DNA of 38,966 nucleotides from a virus, in IMG/VR virus record IMGVR_UViG_3300030104_003665, positions 4,948 through 43,913 of that record. The stretch is one strand, 5' to 3'. Shown here piece by piece: positions 14,270 through 36,973 of this stretch (position 1 is the stretch's first letter; each line of letters opens with the position of its first letter). The translations under genes were made by a program, and so were the position numbers. The notes under the pieces were generated by a model. It made no database searches. It was not told the DNA's origin and saw only the letters and a list, made by a program, of their open reading frames with translations.

Positions 14270-17200
14270 ATGCCGGAAATTAAAAATAGCTTTCTGAAAG
14301 GAAAGATGAATAAAGATTTTGATGAAAGGTTAGTGCCTAATGGAGAATATAGAGACGCTTTAAATATAGAAATATCTACTTCTGAAGATTCAAGCGTTGG
14401 CGTAGTAAAAAACATATTAGGTAACCATAGAATAGAAGATATAATTGGCAATGATTTTGTTTGTGTTGCAAGCATTGCAAACGAAAAAACAAATAAACTA
14501 TATTGGTTTGTTTCAAGTAATCATACTGATGCAATTGTAGAATACGACGTAGAAAATAGTACTTCTAACGAACATGTTATTGATATTGTTTTTGTTGATA
14601 AATATGTTAACACTTCTAAAGCGGTATTAAAGTTTGCGAATAAAATAATAACAGGTATAAATATAATAGACGATTTGTTATTATGGACTGACAATGAAAA
14701 TAATCCAAGAAAAATAAACGTAAACGAGTGTAAAAAAAGCACTTCTGATATTAATACTCATACCCAACTTTTATTTGATGAAGGTAGTTTTAGTGGTATA
14801 ACCTTAGATCTTATGACTGGTGCTGTAGATGCAGATGGTAATTCTGAACTTATAGGAGATGGTGATTTTCCTTTTAACATTGTAACGCAGGCCGGTGAAA
14901 GGGTTTGGTACGAAAGAAAACAGCTAGACGCTTTGTTAGGTCAAAAAGCAGTTCCGCTTGGATTTGCAACATCAAACAACGATGATACAATAAAACTAGA
15001 GCATAAAGTTAAACATTATAGAAATAAAAAATTTTTAGGTGTAAAAAATATTATAGTTTTTGATGATCCAGATGATGCAACCTCAGCTGGTACTTATTTT
15101 AACGCTGTAGATAATTTTACAGATCAAAATATAATACATGATGCTTGGGAAAAAGGTGATGTTATTTTTGGAAATGATATTACTATAGATATAGAAGAGC
15201 GTCATATCACTTTAATAAAGCCAAAACCTTTAAACTCTCTTTCTGTAAAAATAAATCACGAAGAGCAAAACGAACAAACTTCAAGCATACCAAATCTATT
15301 TGAAACAAAATTTCCTAGATTTGCGTATAGATATAAGTACAGAGATGGCGAGTTCTCTCCATTTTCTCCTTTCACACATCCTGTTTTCAACGCAAAATAT
15401 CCAAAAGATATTAATGCTTCTAACGATACAACTGTTTTTCACAATCAAGATAACGTTTACGACGTAGATGAACCACATAATAAAGCTATGGTTAACTCTA
15501 TTCACTCCGTAGAGCTAACTGATTTTATTAATCCTAACACACCAGAAGATGTTGTTGCTATAGAAATATTATGTAAACAAGAAGAATCTCCTAACATATA
15601 CTCTATAGATACTATAAAAAGATTAGATAAAGAATGGCACTCGTTAAGTAACCACGAGGGTATAGGCCTTGATTTAGGTTTAGGTAAATCAAACGAGCAA
15701 ACTTTTGCTGCTGATGGTAGTATTACAAAAGGTAAATATATAATAACTACAGAAAATATTTACGCTGCTTTGCCTTCAAATCAATTGTTAAGACAGTGGG
15801 ATAACGTACCTAGAAAAGCTTTAGCACAAGAAATAACAGGTAATAGAATTGTATTTGGTAACTATGTTCAAAATTATGATATTGAAAACGATTTAGAAAT
15901 TTCTGTTAGTTATACAGATAGAAAAGGTAATATAAATAATTTTGTATCAAGTGGTGTTAGACACGTTAAGTCACAAAGAAATTACCAATTAGGTGTTGTA
16001 TATAGCGATATATATGGTAGAGAAACTCCGGTTTTAACTTCTTCAGATGGTGCTATTAATGTGCCTTGGCAAGATAACAATGGTAATGTTAACGCTAGCA
16101 GAAGTCTTCAATTGAATACTAGTGTTGCTAATAATTTTCCTGAATGGGTAGATTCTTTTAAATATTTTATAAAAGAAATATCTAATCCATATTACAACTT
16201 AGTAATGGATAGAGCTTGGGTTGGTAAAAGTACATACGAACTAGACGATTCAAAAGGTCACATATGGATATCATTCGCTTCTTCTGATCGTAATAAAATT
16301 TCAGAAGAAGATTATATAATACTAAAAAAGAAAATTGGTACAGATGAAAAACAAGTACTAACAGAAAATAAATTTAAAGTAATTGATATAAAAAACGAAG
16401 CGCCTGAAGTTTGTAAATATCAATTAGTAAATTATGGGCAAGTAGATCAAAACGGGGCTAATAGCTTAACTGATGACATGTTCAAAGTATCTGACCAAAG
16501 AATAGACAAAGAAGTAGACACAATACAAATAGAAGCTGCTGAATGGAAATCATTTAGTAATTCTACCGCAGGTCTTTTTGGAGGTGTTACTTTAGAAGAA
16601 GACTCTGACCAAGGAAGTGGTCCTATTAAAACAACTGGTTTATATATTTGTTGGAGAAGAACTACAGCAAATGATACTATGGTATCTAAAAAATATAAAA
16701 TAGTAAACGGTAATTCTGATGGCACTACTTATACTTTAAAGCTAGCAACTAAAATAACTAAAATAGATGCTGATATAGCCCACGTAAACGGTAATTCTAG
16801 CGATACAACACAAGCAAATTTACATAACGATTTGTTAGTTCAAATAGAAAAAAGAGTTATAAAAGATGAAGAAAATTTTTCTGGTAAATTTTTTGTTAAA
16901 ATATCTAAAAATCAAATTACAGATTTAATAGACAACGGTAACGCTGTTAATATACTAGATCAATTTCAAGTAACTTCAAAAGCTAGTCAATGTTGGTATT
17001 GGCAAGATGATATACCAGGCGTGACACAATCTGCTGTTTACGACGAGAGTAACGTAACTAACTATGGCCTTATGAATTACACTGGCCATGTAGCGGATCA
17101 CGCTACTGATCCAGATGATAGTATTCATGACGCTGATAATAATAATGCTGTTGGTGATGTAGACGCTAATGGCGAGGAAATGAGAGTTACAGACTACGCC

Positions 17201-20200
17201 GATCCTTGGGAAGGTATCGAAGCTGCTTTTGGCCCTACATTTTTTATAGACTCAATGCACATGGCTGCTGGGCAAAGTAATGTTAGTAACTATGCTAAAT
17301 ATTGTTGTATCACTTGGGCTGGTTGTACTGAAGACGAACAAGAATCTGCTGAAAAATCATCTTGGAGTTACCCACCACTTAAAACTTGGATAACAGATTT
17401 TGAGGATGTGTCAGGATTAAAAGAAAAAGCAAAAACAAGCTCTGTTTGGTACACACAAGCTAATAATGGTGAGTTTATATCAACATCACCTTTGATACCT
17501 AGAAATGATGAGTGGAGAAATAGAAGAATTGATGGTTGGGTTGGTCCACTTCAAACACCTATAAGAAACACGCCGTCAACTTTAGATTCTATAAACGAAA
17601 ATCATATAAATGGTTTAGAAGGAATAGTAACAACATCATTAATGCATGCTGTAGGTCCTAGGAGATGGTTAAGTGGAATAACTCGTGATGCTACAGAAAA
17701 CGGCATTGGAGTTGATACAAAAACCTATTCAAATAACGGTGAAATTGATAGACATTTTATGCACTTATCTTTCTTTGCACCAGGAAGAGATTTAGTTCCT
17801 GATGATATAGAAACTGATCCAAAGTTATTTGGTAAAAACTCTTGGGCTGCAAATTTACAAGGTATATGGGGAGGTGGTGTTTTTACAGGTCGTTATAGTA
17901 ACGAACTGTTTGGAACTCATGCTTCAAAAAAACATAGACATTTGTTAATGGAAGGTAATCATGACGAAGCTTTCAATTATAAAGAGTTGTCTCCAAGACC
18001 TGGTGTTGGTTATGGCTATAATATAAAGTATAAAGAAAGACATGAGAGACAGTGGGATCCTACTTTTAATGCAAGTGGTGATCCTGATAATAAAATACGT
18101 GATTTCATAAGAAATTTAAAACCTGGTGCTAAATTTAGATTTAATAAAGTTTCAAGCGTAAAAATTGATCTTAATACTGACGCCGCTGGCTATACAGATG
18201 TATCTGCTATTACTATGTCTGGAGATATAAGTGACGCTGGAATTGTAGCTGGTATGTTAGTATTTGGAGATGGAATTGCAGCGGGAACAACAGTAGCCTC
18301 TGAAAGTGGTGTGACATTAAATTTATCACAAAACGCAACTATAACTGCTGTTGCTACAAAACTTACATTTGTTTTCCCAGAAAATACTGATACCGAAGTT
18401 TATACTATTAAAAAAGTTGATGTAAAAAAATTATACAACCATACTTCTTGGAGAAAAGCATATAATAGATATCTTGTTAATGATGGTTATACTAAAAGAG
18501 TAAATGATAATAACAAATATTGGAGTGTAGAACAATCTGCTTTAGATTATTTAAGCAAAGTAGATGGTAATGGAAATTCTACAGATAATACTAAAAGAGA
18601 TTTTTTAAAAAATAAAATAAAACAATTTGGAGCTGCAGATAATAGAAGAATTTGTTATATAATAGAATTAGATAAAAACCCAGTAGACGCAACTTTTAAC
18701 CCTCTTGACGAAACGCTTAATATAATGTCAGCTGATCTTGCAGAAAATAATTTTTGTGGTATTGAATTTTTAGATCCAGTTAAAGATGTTTTCTTGTCTG
18801 ATTTAAGTAAATTTCCAGCTATATGGGAACTTGATCCTAAAAAAGAAGAAGTAGATTTAGATATATATTTTGAAGCTAGTAGTAATATACCTGTAAAAAT
18901 TAACGATAGAACGAACGAGCTTTTTGCTCCTATTGGTTGCACTGTTGAAGTAATAAGTTTAGTTAAATCTTCTTCATCTATATTAGAATCTTGGGATGGT
19001 TCTACGGCAAAGTTTAATCCTGGTTTTCCTAAATATGATATAGACCCGGGTACAGGTAATAGTCAAGGTGAGATAGATTATTCAGAAATGTTATTTAGAT
19101 TTGTTAGAGATGACGGAAGTTATACGGTTGCTGAAGCAGAACCTTATACTCCGGATGGGGCTAATAAAGAATTTGAAACTGAGTTTAAGTTTAAAGAAAA
19201 AATTGGTGACAATATAATGTCTGGTTTGTCTTGGTATAATTGTTTTTCTTTTGGCAATGGAGTTGAATCAAACAGGATTAGAGATGATTTTAATGAGGTG
19301 TTTATAGCTAATGGTGTTAAAGCGTCTACAACTACTCAAGAAACATACGAGGAAGAAAGAAGATCTCATGGATTAATATATTCTGGTTTATATAACTCAA
19401 GTTCTGGTGTAAATGATTTAAATCAATTTATAACTGCTGAAAAAATAACTAAAGATTTAAATCCAACGTTTGGCAGTATTCAAAAATTATTTCAAAGAAG
19501 AATAAGTTTAATAGCATTTTGTGAAGATAGAGTTGTGAGTATAGTTTCTAATAAAGATACTATATTTAACGCAGATGGTAATCCACAGCTTGTTGCTAGT
19601 GATCGAGTTCTTGGTGATGCTAATCCTTTTGCCGGTAATTACGGTATATCTAAAAATCCAGAGTCTTTTGCTCAAGAATCTTTTAGAGCTTATTTTACAG
19701 ACAAACAAAGAGGAGCTGTACTTAGATTATCTAAAGATGGTTTAACACCTATATCAAAATCAGGTATGCATGATTGGTTTAGAGATAATTTAGACAAGTA
19801 TAATTCACTTATAGGTACTTATGATAGTTATAAAGAAGATTACAACTTAACATTGTCAAATAATAGTTTTAGTGAAAATATTATAATAGATTCTTTTGTT
19901 GAAACTGGTGGTGAAGTTTTTACTATAGATGATTTTGCTAACAGAATACAAAATCCAACAACAACTGGTACGTCGGCCGTACCTTATTACACTCAATATG
20001 ATGTTTTAGATGTTAATTCAAGTTTTAATATAAGTGATTTTACTGCAGATTCTTTTTCGTTTAAAAGTTCTGCTACTATAGTAAATCACGCTGCTATAAA
20101 TGAAGGTGATTTACAAGCTGAAGTAGCACAACAAGGTACTTTAATTCCTTTAGCTGGAACAACTTTAGAATACGATAAATACACAGATTTACCAAACAGT

Positions 20201-23200
20201 GGTGATACACATAACGGTACTTTTTGGAATCTAGATGATTTTACTAGTCTTGCAGTTGTTGCTAGTGGTGGTACTGCTGGTCAATGGGATAATAGTTTGC
20301 CAATTACAGATCATAAAGATTTAAACGCAAATATTAAATGTACTTTAACACCAGTGTATCCATCTGGTACACCAACTGATTGGGATAGTCAGTGGGGAGA
20401 TCCTGCTTACTATAGAGATATTAGCTACCCACTCCAATGTGACAAAGCTGATGCTAATACCGCGGCGCCAAAATTAATAAGTAAGCATATAACTAGAGCT
20501 TACAACAACACATTTGGTGGTACATACAGTAATTATTCACCAACTTCATATCTAGTTTCTCAATTTAATACAAATACAACAGGTGATGGGTGTATTGTTT
20601 TTGATAGAGTTGATCTTGACGCTTATTTAGAGTTTAAAGACTTTGGCGCTGCAGATCCTGTTACCGGTTTGTTAACTGGAGGGCTTAACAGTGACTATAG
20701 ACAAGATCTTATTGATAGAGCGGCGGATCCAGCTCAACTTGGTGCAGAAAAATGGGATGGTACTTATATAGATCCAAATAATATAACACACAGTACATTT
20801 TGGAACGGTGAAGAATTATTAATAGAGTTTGAATTAATTCATTACTCTACTGGTATTGGATATAGTTGGGGAGTAAATCCTACAAACAACAACAAGTCGT
20901 TATTTGGTAGAAACTATTGTGAACCAAAACTTGCTCTTTTTGATGGTAACACCGCGATTTCATCTGATAAATTTGCAACGCAAAATAGTAGTGATATACC
21001 TTGGACACATCCTTACTATGGCAATACTACTATAATTAGTGGCCCTAGAGGTGCTGGTTACTATGACACTCAAGTTAGCCAAGGCAATATAGATGGTACT
21101 TTGTATCCAAACAATCCTTATAGATCTCATAATTTTTGGGATGGAACTACAACTAATCCTACCAACCGTACTGGTCTTATGACTTATCATGATCCAAAAA
21201 ATGGGTTTTTTGATATGACAGGTGTTGCTGAAAATACTAGTGGTGTTAAAGCTTTTCACGCTTTTTGGGCAGATGATCATTCAACGCAAATGTGGAGCTC
21301 AGGTTCTTGGTGGCTTAATACAGCGGAAACTATGGAGCACCCTCTTAGAGGTTTACACCATCAGAATTTTGCTGGTACTACATCTGGTTTTTCTTCAACT
21401 GGTTTTCAATACCAAAAAGTAATGAAATACGCTGTTATGGTAAAGTTTGAAGATCCAAACCAAGCAGACAATTCCATAGCTATAACACCAAAAATAGTTG
21501 TAGAAGATCTTAGAATTAGACTTAATCAAACTAAAGATATACAATCTACTTGGTATGTAGACGATGTAGCTAGAAACTTATTAAAGAGACCTCTTTTTGC
21601 TTTAAAAAGTTTTAAAATACGTAAAGTAAAAGGTATACAAAGTGATGATTTTGCAGGAACAACAATTAACACTATAACACAAATACACGTACCAGCCGTA
21701 CCACCTGTCGATATTCCAGCTTGGAATGAAGTACAATACAACCATTTTGATAAACCTACTACTACATGGACTATTGTAGACAATGCTGTTGGAGGTCCAA
21801 ACACTGTTGTTACACAATCTGAAACATCTGCTATTTTTGGAGATAATCGTGGTGCTATAGAACAAATTGGTAATGAGGCTGGAGCATTAGTCTTGGGTAG
21901 TGAAATAAAATATTCTATTCCAGAAGGAAGTTCTATCACATACGACGCTATAACTGAAACATACTCTTATAGCGATACTTGGCCTGGAACTGAAGGATCT
22001 TTATTAAGTGGTGGTTTTGATTTTAATAGAGTTAGCGCTGTTAACAATGTTTACACAGGAACTGATGTTTTTCATGATAGCTTGTATATTGATATAGAAT
22101 CTTTAGACGTTTCTTCTGCAACAGATATTAAGCATAGTATGATTCAAGAGCCTTTTTCAGTTGGTGTATGGTATTTAGTAGATGTTGAATATGATGACAC
22201 TATTAATGCAGGTACAGGTAATGGTAGTGGTAATGGTGAAATAGCTGTTTATGGAGTTGCTTCTACAGGTAATTTTGATGATGGTGAAGTTATAAACTCC
22301 GCTGGTGTTGGTAAATATTTTGGTGACAATACAAATGCCCACTGTAAGTTAATACAGACCGTGAGAACTGAATATGATTATAATGATAGTAATCCTGGTA
22401 TTGGTGATGGCGAAACTGTTTTAAGAGGAATATTTCAAGTAGCTAGTGATAGTTATTTAAACACAAATAATGAATTAGATCAATTTACATTAAGAGTAGT
22501 TGGCTGTACCAATAAAATTCATATTAAAAAAATAATTGTTAAAAAATTAACAGGATTACCAACTACTGGAACTATCAACGATTGGTTTTTATCACAACAA
22601 GCGAATTATAATCCTGCACATAGTCTTAGTAATAACTCTGTATATATAAATAATGATCAATTATGTTTTCAAATGATAGCAGAGCCTACTGGTAGTATTT
22701 TTAGAAATGTTTGGTATCAAGATATTGTTAGTCCTAGCGACATATATGAAACAGCTTGGAATCTTAGTTTTTCATTAAATAAAAATCCTATTACAAATAA
22801 TTTTAGTGGAAATTTAAGTGGTACTGTAGCTGTAAGTAGCGCTGGTATTTTTAAAGCTATGTTATTTAAAGATATAGAAGAAACAGGTAATTATTTAATT
22901 AGTTTTGAATTAAAACAAGATGATACACCTGCAAATTGGAAAATTTATAGAGAAGATTTAGGCATAGCTGTTACAACAGACTCTACAGTATATAGTAATG
23001 GTACAGTTACAGATGATTTAGATACTTACGGCTGGAATGCAACAAACGCTGGTAACAAAGTGCAATTTTATAATACTTTAGGTGAAACAACAGCTCAAGA
23101 ATATAGTATTACAAACATAGAGCTAATACCTGTTGAGCAAAGTATTATTACGGGATCTATAGGTGCTTGGAATATTACTGGGTTTAGTGCTCCTGATCAA

Positions 23201-24298
23201 TTTATATTTTTAGATAATGTAGAAAATAGATTTGTATTTGATGATTGTCCAATACAAGACGATGGTATACAATTTATAAATATAAACCAACAAATTAATC
23301 AGAATATAAAACAAAACGAACAATATATAATTAGTTTTACACATGGTATTACTAGTGGTGAAATAGATATTTATTATTATAATAAGCAAAATTATGGTTT
23401 TAGAATATCTAGCATAGATTCTACATCAAATACTAATTTTTCTGAAATAGTAACTATTGGACAAGATATTTGGAATCCTGTGCAGGGCACTATAAATAGT
23501 ATTGACTATAGTCCAGATGGTTTAAATTTTACAGCAGATTTAAAAAACTCTATTGTTGTTGTGGCTAAAGATAATAATAGTCTTATAAATGGTTTTATAG
23601 ATAATATATCTATGGTAAGAGTTTATGTTGATGTTGAAACAGCGGATAAAACTATTACTTTTAATGAAGGTGTAAATGGTTGGAGTAGTTTCAAAAGCTT
23701 TGTTCCAGAAAATGGAATTAGTTTATCTAAAAAATATTTTACATTTAAAAACGGCGCTTTATGGCAACATTACGTGCCTAAACTACAAAACCAAGTAGGT
23801 GCTTTCAATAGCGATGGTTTTTTTATTGATTATTCAACACAAGAAGCTGATAATTATAATGTGTTTTACGATACTCCTAGCTATTCAAGTATAACAAGTG
23901 TAATAAATCAAGGTCCTTCTACTGTTAAAACATTTAACACTATAAACTACGAAGGTAGTCAAGCTAATGTAATACAACCAGTAAGTGAGTCTGAAGTTAC
24001 GGTTGACAACGCTAACGCTTGGGTTAGTCAAGATAATATTTTAGGTTGGAAATGCTCTGAAATAAAAACAGATTTAGATGTAGGTAGTGTTATTGAGTTT
24101 ATTAAAAAAGAAGGTAAGTGGTTTAATTATATAAAAGGCTTAAATCAAGGTCAAATTTTAGACACTAGCAAGTTTAGCGTTCAAGGTGTTGGTATAATAA
24201 ATAGTACTGATAGCACAACTTTTACAGGTGTGTCAACTGGTAGTATTAACACAGGTGGTGGTGGTCAAGTGGATGCCGGTGGTGGTGTTGGTTATTAA
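14270..24298 (+). CDS. Giant gp12-like tail nozzle / receptor-binding protein (3342 residues)
   Basis: The start (MPEIKNSFLKGKMNKDFDER, then VPNGEYRDALNIEIST) and the segment RYKYRDGEFSPFSPFTHPVF at about 349-368 are hallmarks of large tail tubular/nozzle proteins of podovirus-like marine phages, distantly like T7 gp12. Another conserved-looking block is at about 1745-1850 (NKDTIFNADGNPQ, YGISKNPESFAQESFRAYF, GAVLRLSKDGLTPIS). A short beta module (GMLVFGDGIAAGTTV) sits near 1327. From about 2600 to 3120 several jelly-roll-like segments follow. The end (about 3125-3290: TFNEGVNGWSSFKSF, FKNGALWQHYVP, STVKTFNTINYEGSQAN) closes with a Gly-rich tail. It probably forms the tail and binds surface glycans. 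No frameshift is visible over 10 kb. Confidence 0.75.
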   Translation: MPEIKNSFLKGKMNKDFDERLVPNGEYRDALNIEISTSEDSSVGVVKNILGNHRIEDIIGNDFVCVASIANEKTNKLYWFVSSNHTDAIVEYDVENSTSNEHVIDIVFVDKYVNTSKAVLKFANKIITGINIIDDLLLWTDNENNPRKINVNECKKSTSDINTHTQLLFDEGSFSGITLDLMTGAVDADGNSELIGDGDFPFNIVTQAGERVWYERKQLDALLGQKAVPLGFATSNNDDTIKLEHKVKHYRNKKFLGVKNIIVFDDPDDATSAGTYFNAVDNFTDQNIIHDAWEKGDVIFGNDITIDIEERHITLIKPKPLNSLSVKINHEEQNEQTSSIPNLFETKFPRFAYRYKYRDGEFSPFSPFTHPVFNAKYPKDINASNDTTVFHNQDNVYDVDEPHNKAMVNSIHSVELTDFINPNTPEDVVAIEILCKQEESPNIYSIDTIKRLDKEWHSLSNHEGIGLDLGLGKSNEQTFAADGSITKGKYIITTENIYAALPSNQLLRQWDNVPRKALAQEITGNRIVFGNYVQNYDIENDLEISVSYTDRKGNINNFVSSGVRHVKSQRNYQLGVVYSDIYGRETPVLTSSDGAINVPWQDNNGNVNASRSLQLNTSVANNFPEWVDSFKYFIKEISNPYYNLVMDRAWVGKSTYELDDSKGHIWISFASSDRNKISEEDYIILKKKIGTDEKQVLTENKFKVIDIKNEAPEVCKYQLVNYGQVDQNGANSLTDDMFKVSDQRIDKEVDTIQIEAAEWKSFSNSTAGLFGGVTLEEDSDQGSGPIKTTGLYICWRRTTANDTMVSKKYKIVNGNSDGTTYTLKLATKITKIDADIAHVNGNSSDTTQANLHNDLLVQIEKRVIKDEENFSGKFFVKISKNQITDLIDNGNAVNILDQFQVTSKASQCWYWQDDIPGVTQSAVYDESNVTNYGLMNYTGHVADHATDPDDSIHDADNNNAVGDVDANGEEMRVTDYADPWEGIEAAFGPTFFIDSMHMAAGQSNVSNYAKYCCITWAGCTEDEQESAEKSSWSYPPLKTWITDFEDVSGLKEKAKTSSVWYTQANNGEFISTSPLIPRNDEWRNRRIDGWVGPLQTPIRNTPSTLDSINENHINGLEGIVTTSLMHAVGPRRWLSGITRDATENGIGVDTKTYSNNGEIDRHFMHLSFFAPGRDLVPDDIETDPKLFGKNSWAANLQGIWGGGVFTGRYSNELFGTHASKKHRHLLMEGNHDEAFNYKELSPRPGVGYGYNIKYKERHERQWDPTFNASGDPDNKIRDFIRNLKPGAKFRFNKVSSVKIDLNTDAAGYTDVSAITMSGDISDAGIVAGMLVFGDGIAAGTTVASESGVTLNLSQNATITAVATKLTFVFPENTDTEVYTIKKVDVKKLYNHTSWRKAYNRYLVNDGYTKRVNDNNKYWSVEQSALDYLSKVDGNGNSTDNTKRDFLKNKIKQFGAADNRRICYIIELDKNPVDATFNPLDETLNIMSADLAENNFCGIEFLDPVKDVFLSDLSKFPAIWELDPKKEEVDLDIYFEASSNIPVKINDRTNELFAPIGCTVEVISLVKSSSSILESWDGSTAKFNPGFPKYDIDPGTGNSQGEIDYSEMLFRFVRDDGSYTVAEAEPYTPDGANKEFETEFKFKEKIGDNIMSGLSWYNCFSFGNGVESNRIRDDFNEVFIANGVKASTTTQETYEEERRSHGLIYSGLYNSSSGVNDLNQFITAEKITKDLNPTFGSIQKLFQRRISLIAFCEDRVVSIVSNKDTIFNADGNPQLVASDRVLGDANPFAGNYGISKNPESFAQESFRAYFTDKQRGAVLRLSKDGLTPISKSGMHDWFRDNLDKYNSLIGTYDSYKEDYNLTLSNNSFSENIIIDSFVETGGEVFTIDDFANRIQNPTTTGTSAVPYYTQYDVLDVNSSFNISDFTADSFSFKSSATIVNHAAINEGDLQAEVAQQGTLIPLAGTTLEYDKYTDLPNSGDTHNGTFWNLDDFTSLAVVASGGTAGQWDNSLPITDHKDLNANIKCTLTPVYPSGTPTDWDSQWGDPAYYRDISYPLQCDKADANTAAPKLISKHITRAYNNTFGGTYSNYSPTSYLVSQFNTNTTGDGCIVFDRVDLDAYLEFKDFGAADPVTGLLTGGLNSDYRQDLIDRAADPAQLGAEKWDGTYIDPNNITHSTFWNGEELLIEFELIHYSTGIGYSWGVNPTNNNKSLFGRNYCEPKLALFDGNTAISSDKFATQNSSDIPWTHPYYGNTTIISGPRGAGYYDTQVSQGNIDGTLYPNNPYRSHNFWDGTTTNPTNRTGLMTYHDPKNGFFDMTGVAENTSGVKAFHAFWADDHSTQMWSSGSWWLNTAETMEHPLRGLHHQNFAGTTSGFSSTGFQYQKVMKYAVMVKFEDPNQADNSIAITPKIVVEDLRIRLNQTKDIQSTWYVDDVARNLLKRPLFALKSFKIRKVKGIQSDDFAGTTINTITQIHVPAVPPVDIPAWNEVQYNHFDKPTTTWTIVDNAVGGPNTVVTQSETSAIFGDNRGAIEQIGNEAGALVLGSEIKYSIPEGSSITYDAITETYSYSDTWPGTEGSLLSGGFDFNRVSAVNNVYTGTDVFHDSLYIDIESLDVSSATDIKHSMIQEPFSVGVWYLVDVEYDDTINAGTGNGSGNGEIAVYGVASTGNFDDGEVINSAGVGKYFGDNTNAHCKLIQTVRTEYDYNDSNPGIGDGETVLRGIFQVASDSYLNTNNELDQFTLRVVGCTNKIHIKKIIVKKLTGLPTTGTINDWFLSQQANYNPAHSLSNNSVYINNDQLCFQMIAEPTGSIFRNVWYQDIVSPSDIYETAWNLSFSLNKNPITNNFSGNLSGTVAVSSAGIFKAMLFKDIEETGNYLISFELKQDDTPANWKIYREDLGIAVTTDSTVYSNGTVTDDLDTYGWNATNAGNKVQFYNTLGETTAQEYSITNIELIPVEQSIITGSIGAWNITGFSAPDQFIFLDNVENRFVFDDCPIQDDGIQFININQQINQNIKQNEQYIISFTHGITSGEIDIYYYNKQNYGFRISSIDSTSNTNFSEIVTIGQDIWNPVQGTINSIDYSPDGLNFTADLKNSIVVVAKDNNSLINGFIDNISMVRVYVDVETADKTITFNEGVNGWSSFKSFVPENGISLSKKYFTFKNGALWQHYVPKLQNQVGAFNSDGFFIDYSTQEADNYNVFYDTPSYSSITSVINQGPSTVKTFNTINYEGSQANVIQPVSESEVTVDNANAWVSQDNILGWKCSEIKTDLDVGSVIEFIKKEGKWFNYIKGLNQGQILDTSKFSVQGVGIINSTDSTTFTGVSTGSINTGGGGQVDAGGGVGY

Positions 24299-29605: not shown

Positions 29606-32600
29606 ATGTTAGAACAATTATATCAAGGACTTTTTACCGATGGTTTTTTTACTGGAAGCTTTCAAGATTTTCAAAATAGATTTGAAGATGAAGAGTTTAG
29701 AAAAAAACTACATGCTGGTATTGTAGGTGATGGTGACTTTACAGGTGATTTTGAAAAATTTGAAAAAACTTTTTTGGGAAAGACACAAGGCTCAACGGTA
29801 GATTCGACGATGAGCCAAGGAAGTATGGGATCACAATTGGGCGATGGTTCTTTGGCGCAACAAGAAAATAAAGGTTGGTTCGCACAGGCTATGGAAGCTG
29901 GTGCGGTTAATGCTGATTTATATGATGATGCTGATGCTATTTTTGATATAAATTCTACTGAAGAAGCTAGAAAATTAAATGATAAAGAACTACAAACTTA
30001 CATAGATTTAGTTACAAAATCTAAAATTTCTGCAGCTGAAATGGAAGAATTAGATAAATTTACAAAATCTTTTTCTAAATATAATGCGGCTGGAGAAAAT
30101 TGGTTTATGTCTACTATAAATGCTATTAACGAAAACGGTGGTGTTACAGGTGGTGGTTTAAAAGGTTTTGCTCAAGCAGCTGTGCAAAGTTATAGATCAA
30201 TGGCAAACGAGGAATTAGCGAAAGAAGCTATTGCACCAACATTAGCAGCGGCTGGTACTGGCGCGGCTGCTACAGCATATGGTTTTGGTATTGGAGCTTT
30301 GCCCGCTGGGTTAGCTGGAATGTTTGGCTCTATGAATTATGGCTTAGAAACTATAGCTACTTTTAATGAGCTACTTGAAGAAGAAATAAAAGCAAGAGGT
30401 TTAGAATTTACACCAGAATCTATAAGAACGGTAATGGCAGATGATGAGGCTAGGGCAAGAATAAAAAGTTTAGCTAGAAAAAGAGGCGCAACAATTGGTA
30501 CTATAGAGGGTGCAACAAATTTAGTTGGCGTAAAAGGAGCCGGATTCGTACTTAAAGCAGGTGAAGATGTTAGTAGTACTATTGGTAAAGCAGCTATCAA
30601 ATCGGCAAGCGCAACTACAGCTGGTACAATAGAAGCTGGTGGAAGTGGTTTTGGTGAATTTTTAGGTGCTAAAGCTGCTGGTAAAGAAGCTACTGGTGCT
30701 GATATAATTTTAGAAAGTTTTTCTGGTGGTGTTGTAAAAGCACCTATAGATGTTGCTACAGCTAGTGTTGATTTAGCTATGAATAGACCAACATATGAAG
30801 TTAATGGTAAAAAAGTAAAAAAACAATCTGTTTTAGATTATGTTAATGGTGCTACAACAGCTGAGGAAATAGGTAATTTAAATGTAAAAGTTGAAAATGA
30901 TAACGCTTTTTCTAAAATTATTAATGAAAGAATTATTAACAAAGAATTAGAAACTCAAGTTGACGCTAAAATATCAAATATAGATGATAGAAATCAAATG
31001 GTTGAGCTTGAAAAACAAAGACTTAAAGCTGAAATTGATTCTAAAAAAACTGGTATACAAGCTGTTCCTGGTGCTAAAGAAAGTTTAGAAAATATCCAGA
31101 GTGAAATGGATAATATTATTTCAAAATATTCAAGTGTCGATGGTAGAACAAAAGATGTCAAAGCTAGAGTTAAAAAAGCTCAACAAGTAAGAGAAATCAA
31201 ATTAGAAAAAACAAAACAATTTGCTAAAATATCAAGTGAGCAATTAGGGTTTAATCCTTTTGAAAGTTTTAAAACTAATAATGATTTTGTTAATAATTTA
31301 GTATCAAGAGTTATGTCGCTGCAACAATATGAGTTTGACGGTGTTAAAGTTGATTTATCAAAAATGACAGAAGATCAAATTAACACTGAGGCAAACAGAA
31401 TTGCTGATAGCGCTTATAACGCCGGCGCGGTAAATATACCTACGGCAGATGGTAATCAAGCTATAATGATTAACGAAGAAGCTGCTTTTAAATATAAAAC
31501 ATTAGAAGTAGGTTCACATGAAGTTTTACACGGTGTTTTAAGAGGTGCTTTGGCTAACATGGATATTGATACGAGAAAAAAAGTTATAAAGGATTTTAAA
31601 ACTCAAGTAGAAAAAAATCTTGGAAAAAATGTCGTTGGTGCTATAGAAGCTAGATTGAAAAATGATTACGGTGATACTATTGATTTAGATACTACTGACG
31701 AATGGTTTACTGGTTTGTCTGATATTATAGAAGATAAAAATAATAATATAACATACGAAAATAATAAAGGATTTTTTAATAATATAAAAAACAAAGTAGC
31801 TAGTATATTTAAAAAACAAACACCATACAAAAATTTAAGTATAGAAACCGGTGAAGATGCTTTTGGTTTTATGAAAGAGTACAGTAAAAACGTTAAAGAA
31901 GGTAAACTTAGCGAAAGTATGGTTGCATTTGCAAAAACTGGTAAAGCAACACCGATTCAAGAAGGAGCTAAATTTTCAAAAAGAGATTATACGCCTTCGC
32001 AAACAACAAAAGAAATAAATGACCTTGGGAAACAAATTGTAGACGAAGATGGTACTATTACAAATTTAGAGGAAGAAGGTGTTGGTAATGTTTATTACGA
32101 AGCAGAAGCAGATAATATTGTAAGTAAAATAGAAAAACAAGGTTATTTAGATAATTTGATAGCATCTAAATACAAAGGCGATGTTGTACCCGCTAACTTT
32201 GTTAAACAAGTTTTATCTGAACTATCGCAACATATTAAAAATTATAAACCTGAAACACAGTTAAATATAGATCCAGCTAAAAGAACTGGTTTGTTTGGTT
32301 GGATAAATCCACAGATAGCAAATAAAGCAGCTGCTGTTTACAATAGAGAGTACAAAGGTGATGAAGCTATTAAAGGCGCTAAAGATGTAGGTGAGACAAC
32401 TAAAGAAGGTGATGTTAAAATTCAAGTAGCAGCAGAAACAGACACTAGATTAAAAGCTCTTGAAACAGAAGATTTATCACCAGCGGCTCAACAAAGAAAA
32501 AAAGCAGAAAAAGCTAAAGCAAAAATACAAAAAACATCTAAATTAAGAAAACAAATAGGTATAGAAGAAGGCGGTAAATTATATAACAAAATTATAGACG

Positions 32601-35600
32601 CTGCAAAACAATCTTTATTAAAAGCTTATGAAGCTGGTACTTCTGCTAGAAACATACAAAGAAAATTAAGGGATCAAGCTAGTAGTTATTTATTTAGCGA
32701 TATTAAAAAGTTTTTAGGTACAAAAGAGTATATAAACAATTTAAAAGAGTTTAGAGTGCCTATAATAGATGCTTTATTTACAGCTGACTTAGTACAAATA
32801 GAAAGACTAGTTCCTGAAAACGAGAGAATATTTACTAAGTTTGAAAGAAAGCTTACTAGAAAAGCAGATGTTGAAGCAGCTGTTGATCAAGGTTTATTAC
32901 CAGCAGAAGCGTTAAATACTTACGATAGAGATAAATCTGTAAATCTTTATACAAAAATAATGCCATCTGAAAGTAAGTTTATAGCTTTTTTTGATCCACC
33001 AGGCTCTTTACCTTCTAAAAAAGATCCAACTAAAATGGTTAGAAGTGGATTAAAAGGCACTAGAAAAGACACTTTAGCTAGACAGTTGTCAGGAGCTCTG
33101 TCTTTTGATGCTACGTTGCAAGTAGCACAAGAACCTGACGTGATAGAAAAAAGATTACAATTTGCTAAAATAAATAATACTGAAATATTAAAAGATGATA
33201 TTAGTGTTTTAGCAGCAACAATACATAGAGATCCAAGTGTTAAGTTTGCTAAAGGTAATGTTCAAATATTAGAAGACCCTAAAAAGAAAAAAATATATGA
33301 TTATGGCAATAAAGTTGCTAGAGCTTATACTGTTGTTGAAGATATATTTTATAATAATAGGCTAGATTATTATCAAAACTTAACACCAGAACAAAAGAAA
33401 AAACATGGTGGTAAAAAAATGGTTGATATCGCTATTGATCAATACTTATCAAGACCAATTGAACGTTTAGATGGTAGCCGTATAGTTGATATAATAAGAA
33501 AAAGTAGAAAAAGAGGACAGAAAGTTAGTGAAGCGTATGAACAATACTTTATAACATCGGCCAACAAGGCTATAAAAGCTATAACGGGCACAAAAGCGAA
33601 AGTCAATGTTGTTGTTAGAGAAGGTGGTATACCAGATGTTCATTTTCAATTTAACAGTACAACAGTAGGTCTTGAAATAAAAATGGATACAGCTAGAGGC
33701 GTGTCTTCTACGTGGAAGTTTGATGGTACTTACTCTGTTAATAATCCTATAGAAACAAAAGCTCAAGAAAGTCTAATTGAGCAAATAAAAAACACGGCTA
33801 AAATGAAAGTGTTTGAAGGTATGGATTTTGTTAAAGGAGTTACTAGAGAACAGTTTGAAACATTAAAAAAACACAAGCATAATTTTAATAAATATGTTGA
33901 TGTTACTGCGGATTATTTATCTTGGCAGTACACAAACAAAGCAATGCCTGAATATTTTATAAACATAGGCGAAGCTGGTGCTTTTTACATGCTTGGTGAT
34001 AATTCTGCTGTAAATGCAATGGTTTTAGATATAGCTGAAAAATTAGGCATTCCAAAATTACAAGGTAATTATAAACTTTATTCTAGACTTAATACTTCTT
34101 CAAAATTTAGAAAAGGAGATGGTAGAAAGCCAGTAACAATTAGAACTGATGTTCAAATAGATACAAAGTCTAAAGATAATTTTACAAATGGTTTTTCACC
34201 TGTAAACCTTGCTGTATCAAAAGATATGAATAATTTTGTTAAAGAATTAAATAATTCTTTAGTAAGCTTTAGTAAAGGTAAAAATACTTCAAACATAGAT
34301 AACGCTGTTAAGTTTTCTCGTTCAAGTAAAAACAAATCTAAAGGTATTACTATTTTAGATTTTGATGATACGTTGGCTACAACTAAATCTTTAGTTAAAT
34401 ATACAACTCCAGATGGCAAAACTGGAACTTTAAACGCAGAGCAATACGCTAACACATATGAAGATTTATTAGCGCAAGGTTATACTTTTGATTTTTCAGA
34501 TTTTAGTAAAGTAATTAAAGGTAAAATAGCACCATTATTTAATAAAGCAATGAAACTTCAAAACAAGTTTGGCTCTAAAGACATGTTTATATTAACTGCT
34601 AGACCAGCTGATTCAGCAGTTGCAATACGTGATTTTTTAAAAGCAAATGGCTTAAACATACCTTTAAAAAACATTACTGGTCTTAGTAACTCAACCTCAG
34701 AAGCTAAAGCGCTATGGATTTCTGAAAAAGTTGCTGAAGGTTATAATGATTTTTATTTTGCTGATGATGCTTTACAAAATGTGCAGGCAGTTAAAAACAT
34801 GTTAGATCAATTTGATGTTAAATCTAAGATTCAACAAGCTAAAGTTAAGTTTAGCAAAGGTATGAGTAAAGATTTTAATAAAATATTAGAAACAACAAAA
34901 GGTGTTCCAGCTGAAAGTATAATATCAAGAGTTAGAGCTATTGAGCGTGGTGCTAAAAAAGGAAAATATGCTTTTTTCTTACCACCATCCGCGGAAGATT
35001 TTAAAGGTTTGTTATATTATTTTATGGGTAAAGGTAGACAAGGAGATAAAGATGCTGCTTTTTTAAAGAAAGCTTTGATTGATCCTTTAAATAGAGCTTA
35101 TACAGAGTTTAACGGCGCTAGGCAAGTTATAACAAATGATTATAGAACTTTAAAAAAATCAATGCCAGAAGCCGCGAAAAAAGCAAATCAACAAAGTCCA
35201 GATGCTGATTTTACATATGGAGATGCTATTAGAGTTTATCTTTGGAACAAGTCAGGCTTTGATATTCCTGGTTTAACTGAAACAGAAATAAACAAATTAG
35301 TAGATATGGTAACTAACGATCCTCAGTTACAAGTATTTGCTGACAAAGTAGGTTTAATATCTAGACGACCTGAAGGTTATACTCAACCAGGTGAATATTG
35401 GAAAATTGGAGATATTAGAAATGATTTAGATGATGCCATAAATAAAGTTGGTAGAAAAGAGTATTTTGCTGAATTTATTGAAAACACTGAAGAGGTTTTT
35501 GGTAAAATGGTAAATGGTAAACTTACTGGCGATAATATAAATAAAATAGAATCTATATACGGTACAAACTTTAGAGAGGCTTTAGAAGATATATTATATA

Positions 35601-36973
35601 GAACTATAAATGGTACTAGTAGACCTTACGGCTCTAATAGATTAGTGAACAGCTTTACTAATTGGATTAATGGATCTGTTGGGGCTGTTATGTTTGTTAA
35701 CATGAGATCTGCTTTATTGCAGCAAATGTCTTCAGTAAACTTTATAAACTATGGTGATAACAACGTATTTAAAGCCGCTGCTCGATTTGCTGATCAAAAA
35801 CAGTTTTGGAAAGATTGGGTTATGTTATTTAATTCAGACAAACTAAAACAAAGAAGAGCTGGATTAAGTATGGATATTAACGCTAATGAATTAACTACGT
35901 ACTTAAATAAATCAAAATCAAAAACAAAAGCTGCTATAAACTGGTTATTGCGACAAGGATTTAAACCTACACAAATATCGGATAGTATAGCTATTGCAAA
36001 TGGTGGTGCAACTTTTTATAGAAATAGAGTTAATACTTATTTAAAACAAGGTTTAAGTAAAAAAGAAGCAGAGGCAAAAGCTTTTAATGATTTTTCTGAA
36101 ATAGCAGAAGAAACACAACAATCCGCAAGACCTGACATGGCATCACCGCAACAAGCATCTGCTATTGGTAAGTGGTTTTTAAACTTTTTAAATACACCTA
36201 TGCAATATAGTCGTATTATAAAAAAGTCTATGTTAGATTTAATTAATAGAAGAAGAGTACCTAATTTAACACAAGCACAATCTGACACAACTAATATTAG
36301 TAGGATATTATATTATGGTTTCGCACAAAATGTTATATTCTACACGTTACAAACTGGATTATTTGCTGCTTTATTTGATGATGACGACGATGAAGAAAGT
36401 GAAAAGTTTTTTAATAAAAAATATCAGATGGCAGCAAACAGTGTTGTTGATGGTTTACTTAGAGGATTAGGTTTTGGTGGCGCTGTTGTTTCTACGTTAA
36501 AAAATATGATAGTTAAATTTATTGAAGAAGATAGAAAAGGTTATACAGGAAAACCAGTTGAAAAAGTTACTCTTGAAATGGTGAACTTATCGCCAGTAGT
36601 AGGTATTAAAGTTAGAAAAGTTGCTACAGAACTAAGATCTTATAGTTATGATAAAGATGTTATTAAACATATGGAAACTTTTGATATTGATAATCCAATA
36701 TGGGGTATTACAACAGGTATTACAGAAGGTTTAACTAATATACCTGTTAATAGATTGTATAGAAAAACAATGAACTTAAGAGCTGCAACGCAAGATGATA
36801 TTGAGGCTTGGCAAAGACTTGCTTTAATAAGTGGTTGGAGTGTTTGGAACATTGGTATGCAAAATGAAGAGCTAGAAAGAATTAAAGATGAAATCAAGCA
36901 AGAAAGAAAAAAGTTAAAAAAGAAAAAGAAAAATACACCAAGAAGACCAGTTCAAGGTGGTATTACATGGTAA
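29606..36973 (+). CDS. Giant candidate ejection (internal virion) protein with HExxH, PD-(D/E)XK-like and HAD-like signatures
   Basis: The 2455-residue protein begins with two related units (GFFTGSFQDFQNRF, then GDFTGDFEKFEKTF; about 13-54). A Gly/Ala-rich hydrophobic segment lies near 212-250. HEVLH is at 638-642, a zincin-type motif. A PD-(D/E)XK-like nuclease pattern has helix Glu1309/1312, Pro1343-Asp1344 and Glu1357-Ile-Lys1359. A HAD-like domain has DFDDT at 1585-1589, LTARP at 1663-1667, an EAKALW motif and FADD ending at Asp1721. The C-terminal third has SVGAVMFVNMRSALLQQMSS, a hydrophobic helix near 2233-2256 followed by an Asp/Glu run, and a Lys-rich tail. Size and context suggest a protein packaged in the head and injected with DNA; none of the activities is demonstrated. 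Confidence 0.7.
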   Translation: MLEQLYQGLFTDGFFTGSFQDFQNRFEDEEFRKKLHAGIVGDGDFTGDFEKFEKTFLGKTQGSTVDSTMSQGSMGSQLGDGSLAQQENKGWFAQAMEAGAVNADLYDDADAIFDINSTEEARKLNDKELQTYIDLVTKSKISAAEMEELDKFTKSFSKYNAAGENWFMSTINAINENGGVTGGGLKGFAQAAVQSYRSMANEELAKEAIAPTLAAAGTGAAATAYGFGIGALPAGLAGMFGSMNYGLETIATFNELLEEEIKARGLEFTPESIRTVMADDEARARIKSLARKRGATIGTIEGATNLVGVKGAGFVLKAGEDVSSTIGKAAIKSASATTAGTIEAGGSGFGEFLGAKAAGKEATGADIILESFSGGVVKAPIDVATASVDLAMNRPTYEVNGKKVKKQSVLDYVNGATTAEEIGNLNVKVENDNAFSKIINERIINKELETQVDAKISNIDDRNQMVELEKQRLKAEIDSKKTGIQAVPGAKESLENIQSEMDNIISKYSSVDGRTKDVKARVKKAQQVREIKLEKTKQFAKISSEQLGFNPFESFKTNNDFVNNLVSRVMSLQQYEFDGVKVDLSKMTEDQINTEANRIADSAYNAGAVNIPTADGNQAIMINEEAAFKYKTLEVGSHEVLHGVLRGALANMDIDTRKKVIKDFKTQVEKNLGKNVVGAIEARLKNDYGDTIDLDTTDEWFTGLSDIIEDKNNNITYENNKGFFNNIKNKVASIFKKQTPYKNLSIETGEDAFGFMKEYSKNVKEGKLSESMVAFAKTGKATPIQEGAKFSKRDYTPSQTTKEINDLGKQIVDEDGTITNLEEEGVGNVYYEAEADNIVSKIEKQGYLDNLIASKYKGDVVPANFVKQVLSELSQHIKNYKPETQLNIDPAKRTGLFGWINPQIANKAAAVYNREYKGDEAIKGAKDVGETTKEGDVKIQVAAETDTRLKALETEDLSPAAQQRKKAEKAKAKIQKTSKLRKQIGIEEGGKLYNKIIDAAKQSLLKAYEAGTSARNIQRKLRDQASSYLFSDIKKFLGTKEYINNLKEFRVPIIDALFTADLVQIERLVPENERIFTKFERKLTRKADVEAAVDQGLLPAEALNTYDRDKSVNLYTKIMPSESKFIAFFDPPGSLPSKKDPTKMVRSGLKGTRKDTLARQLSGALSFDATLQVAQEPDVIEKRLQFAKINNTEILKDDISVLAATIHRDPSVKFAKGNVQILEDPKKKKIYDYGNKVARAYTVVEDIFYNNRLDYYQNLTPEQKKKHGGKKMVDIAIDQYLSRPIERLDGSRIVDIIRKSRKRGQKVSEAYEQYFITSANKAIKAITGTKAKVNVVVREGGIPDVHFQFNSTTVGLEIKMDTARGVSSTWKFDGTYSVNNPIETKAQESLIEQIKNTAKMKVFEGMDFVKGVTREQFETLKKHKHNFNKYVDVTADYLSWQYTNKAMPEYFINIGEAGAFYMLGDNSAVNAMVLDIAEKLGIPKLQGNYKLYSRLNTSSKFRKGDGRKPVTIRTDVQIDTKSKDNFTNGFSPVNLAVSKDMNNFVKELNNSLVSFSKGKNTSNIDNAVKFSRSSKNKSKGITILDFDDTLATTKSLVKYTTPDGKTGTLNAEQYANTYEDLLAQGYTFDFSDFSKVIKGKIAPLFNKAMKLQNKFGSKDMFILTARPADSAVAIRDFLKANGLNIPLKNITGLSNSTSEAKALWISEKVAEGYNDFYFADDALQNVQAVKNMLDQFDVKSKIQQAKVKFSKGMSKDFNKILETTKGVPAESIISRVRAIERGAKKGKYAFFLPPSAEDFKGLLYYFMGKGRQGDKDAAFLKKALIDPLNRAYTEFNGARQVITNDYRTLKKSMPEAAKKANQQSPDADFTYGDAIRVYLWNKSGFDIPGLTETEINKLVDMVTNDPQLQVFADKVGLISRRPEGYTQPGEYWKIGDIRNDLDDAINKVGRKEYFAEFIENTEEVFGKMVNGKLTGDNINKIESIYGTNFREALEDILYRTINGTSRPYGSNRLVNSFTNWINGSVGAVMFVNMRSALLQQMSSVNFINYGDNNVFKAAARFADQKQFWKDWVMLFNSDKLKQRRAGLSMDINANELTTYLNKSKSKTKAAINWLLRQGFKPTQISDSIAIANGGATFYRNRVNTYLKQGLSKKEAEAKAFNDFSEIAEETQQSARPDMASPQQASAIGKWFLNFLNTPMQYSRIIKKSMLDLINRRRVPNLTQAQSDTTNISRILYYGFAQNVIFYTLQTGLFAALFDDDDDEESEKFFNKKYQMAANSVVDGLLRGLGFGGAVVSTLKNMIVKFIEEDRKGYTGKPVEKVTLEMVNLSPVVGIKVRKVATELRSYSYDKDVIKHMETFDIDNPIWGITTGITEGLTNIPVNRLYRKTMNLRAATQDDIEAWQRLALISGWSVWNIGMQNEELERIKDEIKQERKKLKKKKKNTPRRPVQGGITW

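Follow-up and report, generated by a model that had tools for sequence, protein, structure and literature searches.

What does the catalytic signature of a nuclease do in the middle of a giant phage protein, and is there an enzyme behind it? The protein in question, of 2455 residues, is encoded by IMG/VR record IMGVR_UViG_3300030104_003665, a 43,913-base uncultured marine virus of bacteria, of which bases 4948-43913 were analysed (38,966 nucleotides, hereafter the window). A sequence-only reading of this stretch had noticed a helix bearing Glu1309 and Glu1312, followed by Pro1343-Asp1344 and then Glu1357-Ile-Lys1359, and had proposed a nuclease of the PD-(D/E)XK type. From residue conservation and a structural model we predict, with a probability of about 0.9, that residues ~1270-1492 form a genuine metal-dependent nuclease of the PD-(D/E)XK superfamily with the tetrad E1312/D1344/E1357/K1359; no subfamily is assigned. 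The domain very probably occupies an exchangeable slot that immediately precedes a HAD phosphatase domain, and in relatives of the giant protein this slot is filled by another PD-(D/E)XK subfamily or by an unrelated domain with an EH signature. Polyvalent proteins, like PD-(D/E)XK nucleases, are already known; what appears to be new is such a nuclease alternating with another domain in a slot, and the open-access literature that we searched holds no report of a PD-(D/E)XK domain in a slot of this kind.

Catalytic residues and fold of the predicted nuclease domain

Inspection of the open reading frame places the motif residues exactly where they had been described (E1309 at 33530, P1343-D1344 at 33632-33637), with 12 residues separating D1344 from E1357. 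Taken by itself the PD...EIK string is not significant, because strings of the form PD-x(8-20)-[DE]xK are found at chance level in shuffled copies of the giant protein (mean 0.65; at least one in 48% of the shuffles). A direct homolog search returned one near-copy. Anchoring the search on the HAD domain downstream yielded two sets of 80 loci which, together with the direct relatives, amount to 161 distinct giant proteins. Iterated profiles located the nuclease domain in 45 sequences, near-duplicates included, and the 41 nonredundant rows constitute alignment A7, with identities down to 16-20%. A scan of bacterial genomes for the domain found none.

Of the 223 columns of A7, only D1344, E1357 and K1359 are invariant and E1312 is the sole near-invariant one; in a 17-row alignment with identities down to 17%, these four residues are the only invariant columns. 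The motif is significant because D1344, E1357 and K1359, far from varying freely, are precisely the three columns that never change among 41 homologs. Two details of the sequence-only reading have to be amended. While Glu1312 of the acidic helix pair is kept, Glu1309 is variable and already absent from the relatives L004, L088 and L089; likewise, Asp1344 stands but the residue before it does not, since homologs read PD, GD, AD or ND. The corrected signature is E1312 ... D1344 ... E1357-x-K1359. In L089 (705-741), the PD-(D/E)XK reading frame is frameshifted past the catalytic core, through either a sequencing error or real decay.

An AlphaFold2 model computed with the 41-row alignment (m6b897a3417b7) reached a predicted local distance difference test score (pLDDT) of 82.6 and a predicted TM-score of 0.75. 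In the numbering of this model, to which 1269 is added to obtain the protein residue, a helix at 38-58 holds E1312, a strand at 76-80 follows D1344 and a strand at 83-90 carries E1357 and K1359; a helix at 115-129, further helices, strands at 180-185 and 189-192 and a helix at 198-211 make up the remainder. The four motif residues are placed in the model as in PD-(D/E)XK enzymes. The helix-strand-strand-helix order of the model fits the alpha-beta-alpha core expected by the sequence-only reading, with the first core strand unassigned. A first model built from five sequences shows three strands, the first one among them, at a pLDDT of 46 that is too poor to use.

Profile comparison points the same way. 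With hhalign, the domain profile aligned to a profile built from 78 sequences of YraN/UPF0102 (PF02021), which we take to be a restriction-endonuclease-fold family, at P 1.1e-4 and a probability of 57%, with the helix-A Glu, the Asp and the E-x-K/R in register. The controls gave P values of 0.39 for the reversed profile, 0.23 for HAD, 0.72 for EH and 0.057-0.55 for seven C-terminal windows; comparison with the single sequences of T7 endonuclease I and the phi18:3 exonuclease was uninformative. One diverse member of the domain family matches the PADLOC model of LmuA (PDLC03853) at 5e-5 and others match type II restriction endonuclease models at 0.009; the window's own sequence gave no match to the LmuA model. 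LmuA, the effector of Lamassu, is a bacterial defence protein, whereas the domain described here belongs to a protein of a phage structural cluster. What the window domain shares with the superfamily and with YraN is the helix-A Glu, the Asp opening strand 2, the E-x-K in strand 3 and, in the model, the order of the elements; it differs by its length of ~220 residues, by extra helices after the core and by being embedded in a giant phage protein, and at the sequence level it matches none of the curated subfamilies. YraN/UPF0102 is therefore a fold-level relative of a domain that is itself no YraN member, and Pfam scans returned no PF02021 match for the window domain and listed none for the A7 members.

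Three observations weigh against this assignment. DSSP assigns no core strand 1 in the better of the two models; the YraN signal needs the diverse members, since the eight closest sequences alone yield P 0.37; and the window domain found nothing above cut-off in Pfam, NCBIfam or the sequences of the PDB. Its best Pfam match, DUF1885 (1e-4), was set aside because it is below cut-off, falls in the part that follows the catalytic core and is unseen in other members. Family searches of the window's genome with PF08774 and PF01870 gave no match, with no control loci for comparison. Nevertheless, conservation of the tetrad, the element order of the model, the YraN alignment and the LmuA and type II restriction endonuclease matches together make membership of the PD-(D/E)XK superfamily very likely, in agreement with the original proposal.

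An exchangeable slot upstream of the HAD domain

In all 45 sequences the nuclease domain is found in the same slot, and wherever its distance to the HAD domain can be cleanly measured, this amounts to ~100 residues. Across the 161 giant proteins, the slot holds the PD-(D/E)XK domain only in 41 and the EH domain only in 117, while three proteins have neither and none has both. On a FastTree phylogeny of the HAD domain and the C-terminal region (154 rows, slot excluded), the type of slot domain changes at least 22 times, 17 of these changes being forced by well-supported branches. Since at least 17-22 switches are required on a tree of the neighbours, the slot has been exchanged while the neighbours stayed in place: two unrelated domain families trade places beside conserved ones.

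The EH family, broad once iterated, is characterized by an invariant His preceded by Glu in 105 of 114 sequences and by Asp in 8, often followed by Pro, and by a conserved Arg and Asp. Its E-H-x-x-P arrangement recalls HNH nucleases, a resemblance seen by eye only, and sequence searches of Pfam and PDB with the family gave no match.

Possible delivery and function of the nuclease

The GroES, terminase, portal and structural genes of the window resemble those of Flavobacterium, Cellulophaga, Tenacibaculum and Maribacter phages, and the terminase is 64% identical to that of MW202828 and 46% identical to those of the elemo phages. The giant gene comes after the GroES-TerL-portal-structural genes, in the same place as gp21 of Flavobacterium phage elemoA and gp123 of Cellulophaga phage phi18:3, both Bacteroidota podoviruses, and like them it encodes the last giant protein of the structural set. 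The former is annotated as a structural protein and the latter was identified as a virion protein by tandem mass spectrometry. By analogy with these proteins, we consider it likely that the giant protein is delivered in the virion. Against this stands the failure of the window's domain profiles to align with phi18:3 gp123 or elemoA gp21, which leaves synteny as the ground for a virion location; for gp123 in particular, none of the domains gives a significant profile match, and HExxH is absent. Searches of isolated phages by tblastn returned no match, whether the query was the giant protein, the nuclease region, the HAD domain or one of three divergent domains from the slot.

A second comparison is offered by polyvalent proteins, which phages and conjugative elements carry and whose founding survey is that of Iyer et al. 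2017 (PMC5512222). The likeness lies in a very large multidomain phage protein that joins a zincin-like peptidase with HExxH to a varying set of several enzyme domains, and the abstract of that survey proposes that zincin-like peptidases process polyvalent proteins. The difference is that here one fixed slot holds, by turns, a PD-(D/E)XK nuclease or another domain; the main text of the survey mentions no restriction-endonuclease fold. No Pfam model reached cut-off across the 2455 residues, hence no polyvalent-associated (LPD) or zincin model was matched, and we regard the giant protein as one that works like polyvalent proteins without being a formal member. A PD-(D/E)XK nuclease would thereby be added to the enzymes that giant phage proteins of the polyvalent type carry.

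It is tempting to propose the following course of events. Judging from synteny and architecture, the polyprotein would probably be carried in the virion and enter the cell together with the genome; the HExxH peptidase would probably cut it at the KFSK/R borders, freeing the nuclease and the phosphatase; the freed nuclease would most likely cleave DNA in the infected cell, that of the host or of a rival rather than the phage's own; and the HAD domain would dephosphorylate ends or nucleotides. These steps are not equally secure. That the substrate is DNA seems probable, while for host or rival DNA as the target we see slightly less than an even chance, and a DNase injected against such DNA is a plausible reading. 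The repeated replacement of the slot domain favours conflict over packaging, housekeeping or routine genome processing, and suggests an arms race. Only tentatively, then, do we picture marine Bacteroidota phages as keeping in an injected polyprotein a cleavable slot with KFSK/R at its borders, where unrelated nuclease folds (PD-(D/E)XK and the HNH-like EH domain) would be swapped beside a constant end-processing HAD domain as an exchangeable DNA weapon.

The strongest competitor, although unlikely, is a role in genome processing or repair, in which the nuclease and a polynucleotide kinase-like HAD domain, joined in some relatives by a P-loop kinase, would trim and heal the ends of the incoming phage DNA. 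The constant adjacency of slot and HAD fits such a role, as does the match of the HAD domain to the polynucleotide kinase family phrog_415 (E 4e-4). Moreover, the HAD domain of L005/L135, L127, L128 and L134 contains an inserted segment resembling a P-loop kinase (GGPGSGKST), which suggests a kinase-phosphatase pair. One conserved job nonetheless fails to explain why the nuclease should be replaced recurrently by an unrelated domain.

Less likely again is an injected ribonuclease or another counter-defence enzyme acting on nucleic acids such as tRNA, CRISPR RNA or signalling nucleic acids. PD-(D/E)XK enzymes include RNases. Polyvalent proteins also hold RNase-like PBECR domains (PMC5512222); the closest profile matches of the domain (YraN, LmuA, type II restriction endonucleases) are on the other hand DNA-acting or unassigned families.

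We give still less credit to a nuclease of virion assembly, which would trim or complete packaged DNA ends in the capsid and be no weapon at all. Virion-associated nucleases of restriction-endonuclease fold needed for packaging do exist (T4 gp4 class, PMC7824862), and the giant gene lies within the structural cluster. Yet a domain present in just 41 of 161 relatives, in a slot whose content switches so often, would be unusual for a universal assembly step, and the domain is embedded in a multi-enzyme polyprotein with a peptidase and a phosphatase; the T4-type head completion nuclease, to which we liken it by description only, is by contrast a small stand-alone packaging protein and not a swappable domain. 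Finally, a coincidental or catalytically dead PD...EIK string in a structural protein, compatible with the chance frequency of the bare pattern, is most improbable given a tetrad that is invariant in 41 diverse sequences amid near-total variation, which implies catalytic constraint.

The wider interest lies in the slot itself, whose repeated change of domain offers a testable handle on the role of giant proteins in early infection, with 161 natural variants at hand.

Other features of the giant protein and its locus

The coordinates of all features are gathered in Table 1.

Table 1. Features of the giant protein and of its slot; positions are those of the window unless a relative is named.
Feature	Residues	Nucleotides	Strand	Remarks
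Giant multidomain protein	2455 in all	29606..36973	+	Late in structural gene cluster; synteny with elemoA gp21, phi18:3 gp123
HEVLH (HExxH), putative zincin-like metallopeptidase domain	638-642	31517..31531	+	Conserved downstream Glu (TTDEWFT)
KFSK border motif	789-792	31970..31981	+	Candidate processing site or linker
Predicted PD-(D/E)XK (restriction-endonuclease-fold) nuclease domain	1270-1492	33413..34081	+	A7 alignment, AlphaFold model m6b897a3417b7, hhalign to YraN
Glu1312, helix A catalytic glutamate (predicted)	1312	33539..33541	+	E in 44/45 rows
Asp1344, metal-binding aspartate of the motif (predicted)	1344	33635..33637	+	D in 45/45 rows
Glu1357-Ile-Lys1359, (D/E)xK motif	1357-1359	33674..33682	+	E in 45/45, K in 45/45 rows
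SFSK border motif	1554-1557	34265..34276	+	Between nuclease and HAD domains
KFSR border motif	1569-1572	34310..34321	+	HAD start
HAD-superfamily phosphatase domain	1575-1745	34328..34840	+	DFDDT, LTAR, DD motifs; phrog_415; A3 alignment
KFSK border motif	1748-1751	34847..34858	+	HAD end
Conserved C-terminal module	1755-2455	34868..36970	+	40-60% identical across relatives
EH domain in slot of 117 relatives		e.g. L231:5386-5889; also L290, L163		

The putative peptidase is a near-constant companion of the slot: a HExxH motif lies upstream of HAD in 149 of the 161 relatives, compared with 2 in shuffles. The border motifs are candidate sites of proteolytic processing. The pattern [KSN]FS[KRM] occurs five times in the giant protein of the window, against 0.25 in shuffles and none in 14 other proteins of the window. 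Across the relatives, a slightly looser motif is counted 39 times in the 50 residues preceding HAD and ~64 times at the HAD end, a peak owed partly to the ordinary homology of that end; most other stretches hold 1-3 for every 25 residues. If these motifs do mark cutting sites, at which they hint, they would explain how a single polypeptide delivers several enzymes.

With a 19-residue Kyte-Doolittle window, no transmembrane segment of the giant protein scored above 1.4, and for this reason we claim no role as a membrane channel. Compared with L001, the protein shows a sharp mosaic break, with 17-64% identity before about residue 1000 (residues 1-1000 of the window's protein) and 97-100% beyond, which implies that the N-terminal half was recently exchanged. 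Elsewhere in the window, a 3342-residue structural protein (14270-24298, phrog_14478) also contains a PD...EFK string, at residue 1628, probably by chance. Among the relatives, one 50 kb record (G032, loci L134 and L135) encodes two different giant proteins of this kind, of ~3450 and ~3520 residues, on opposite strands.
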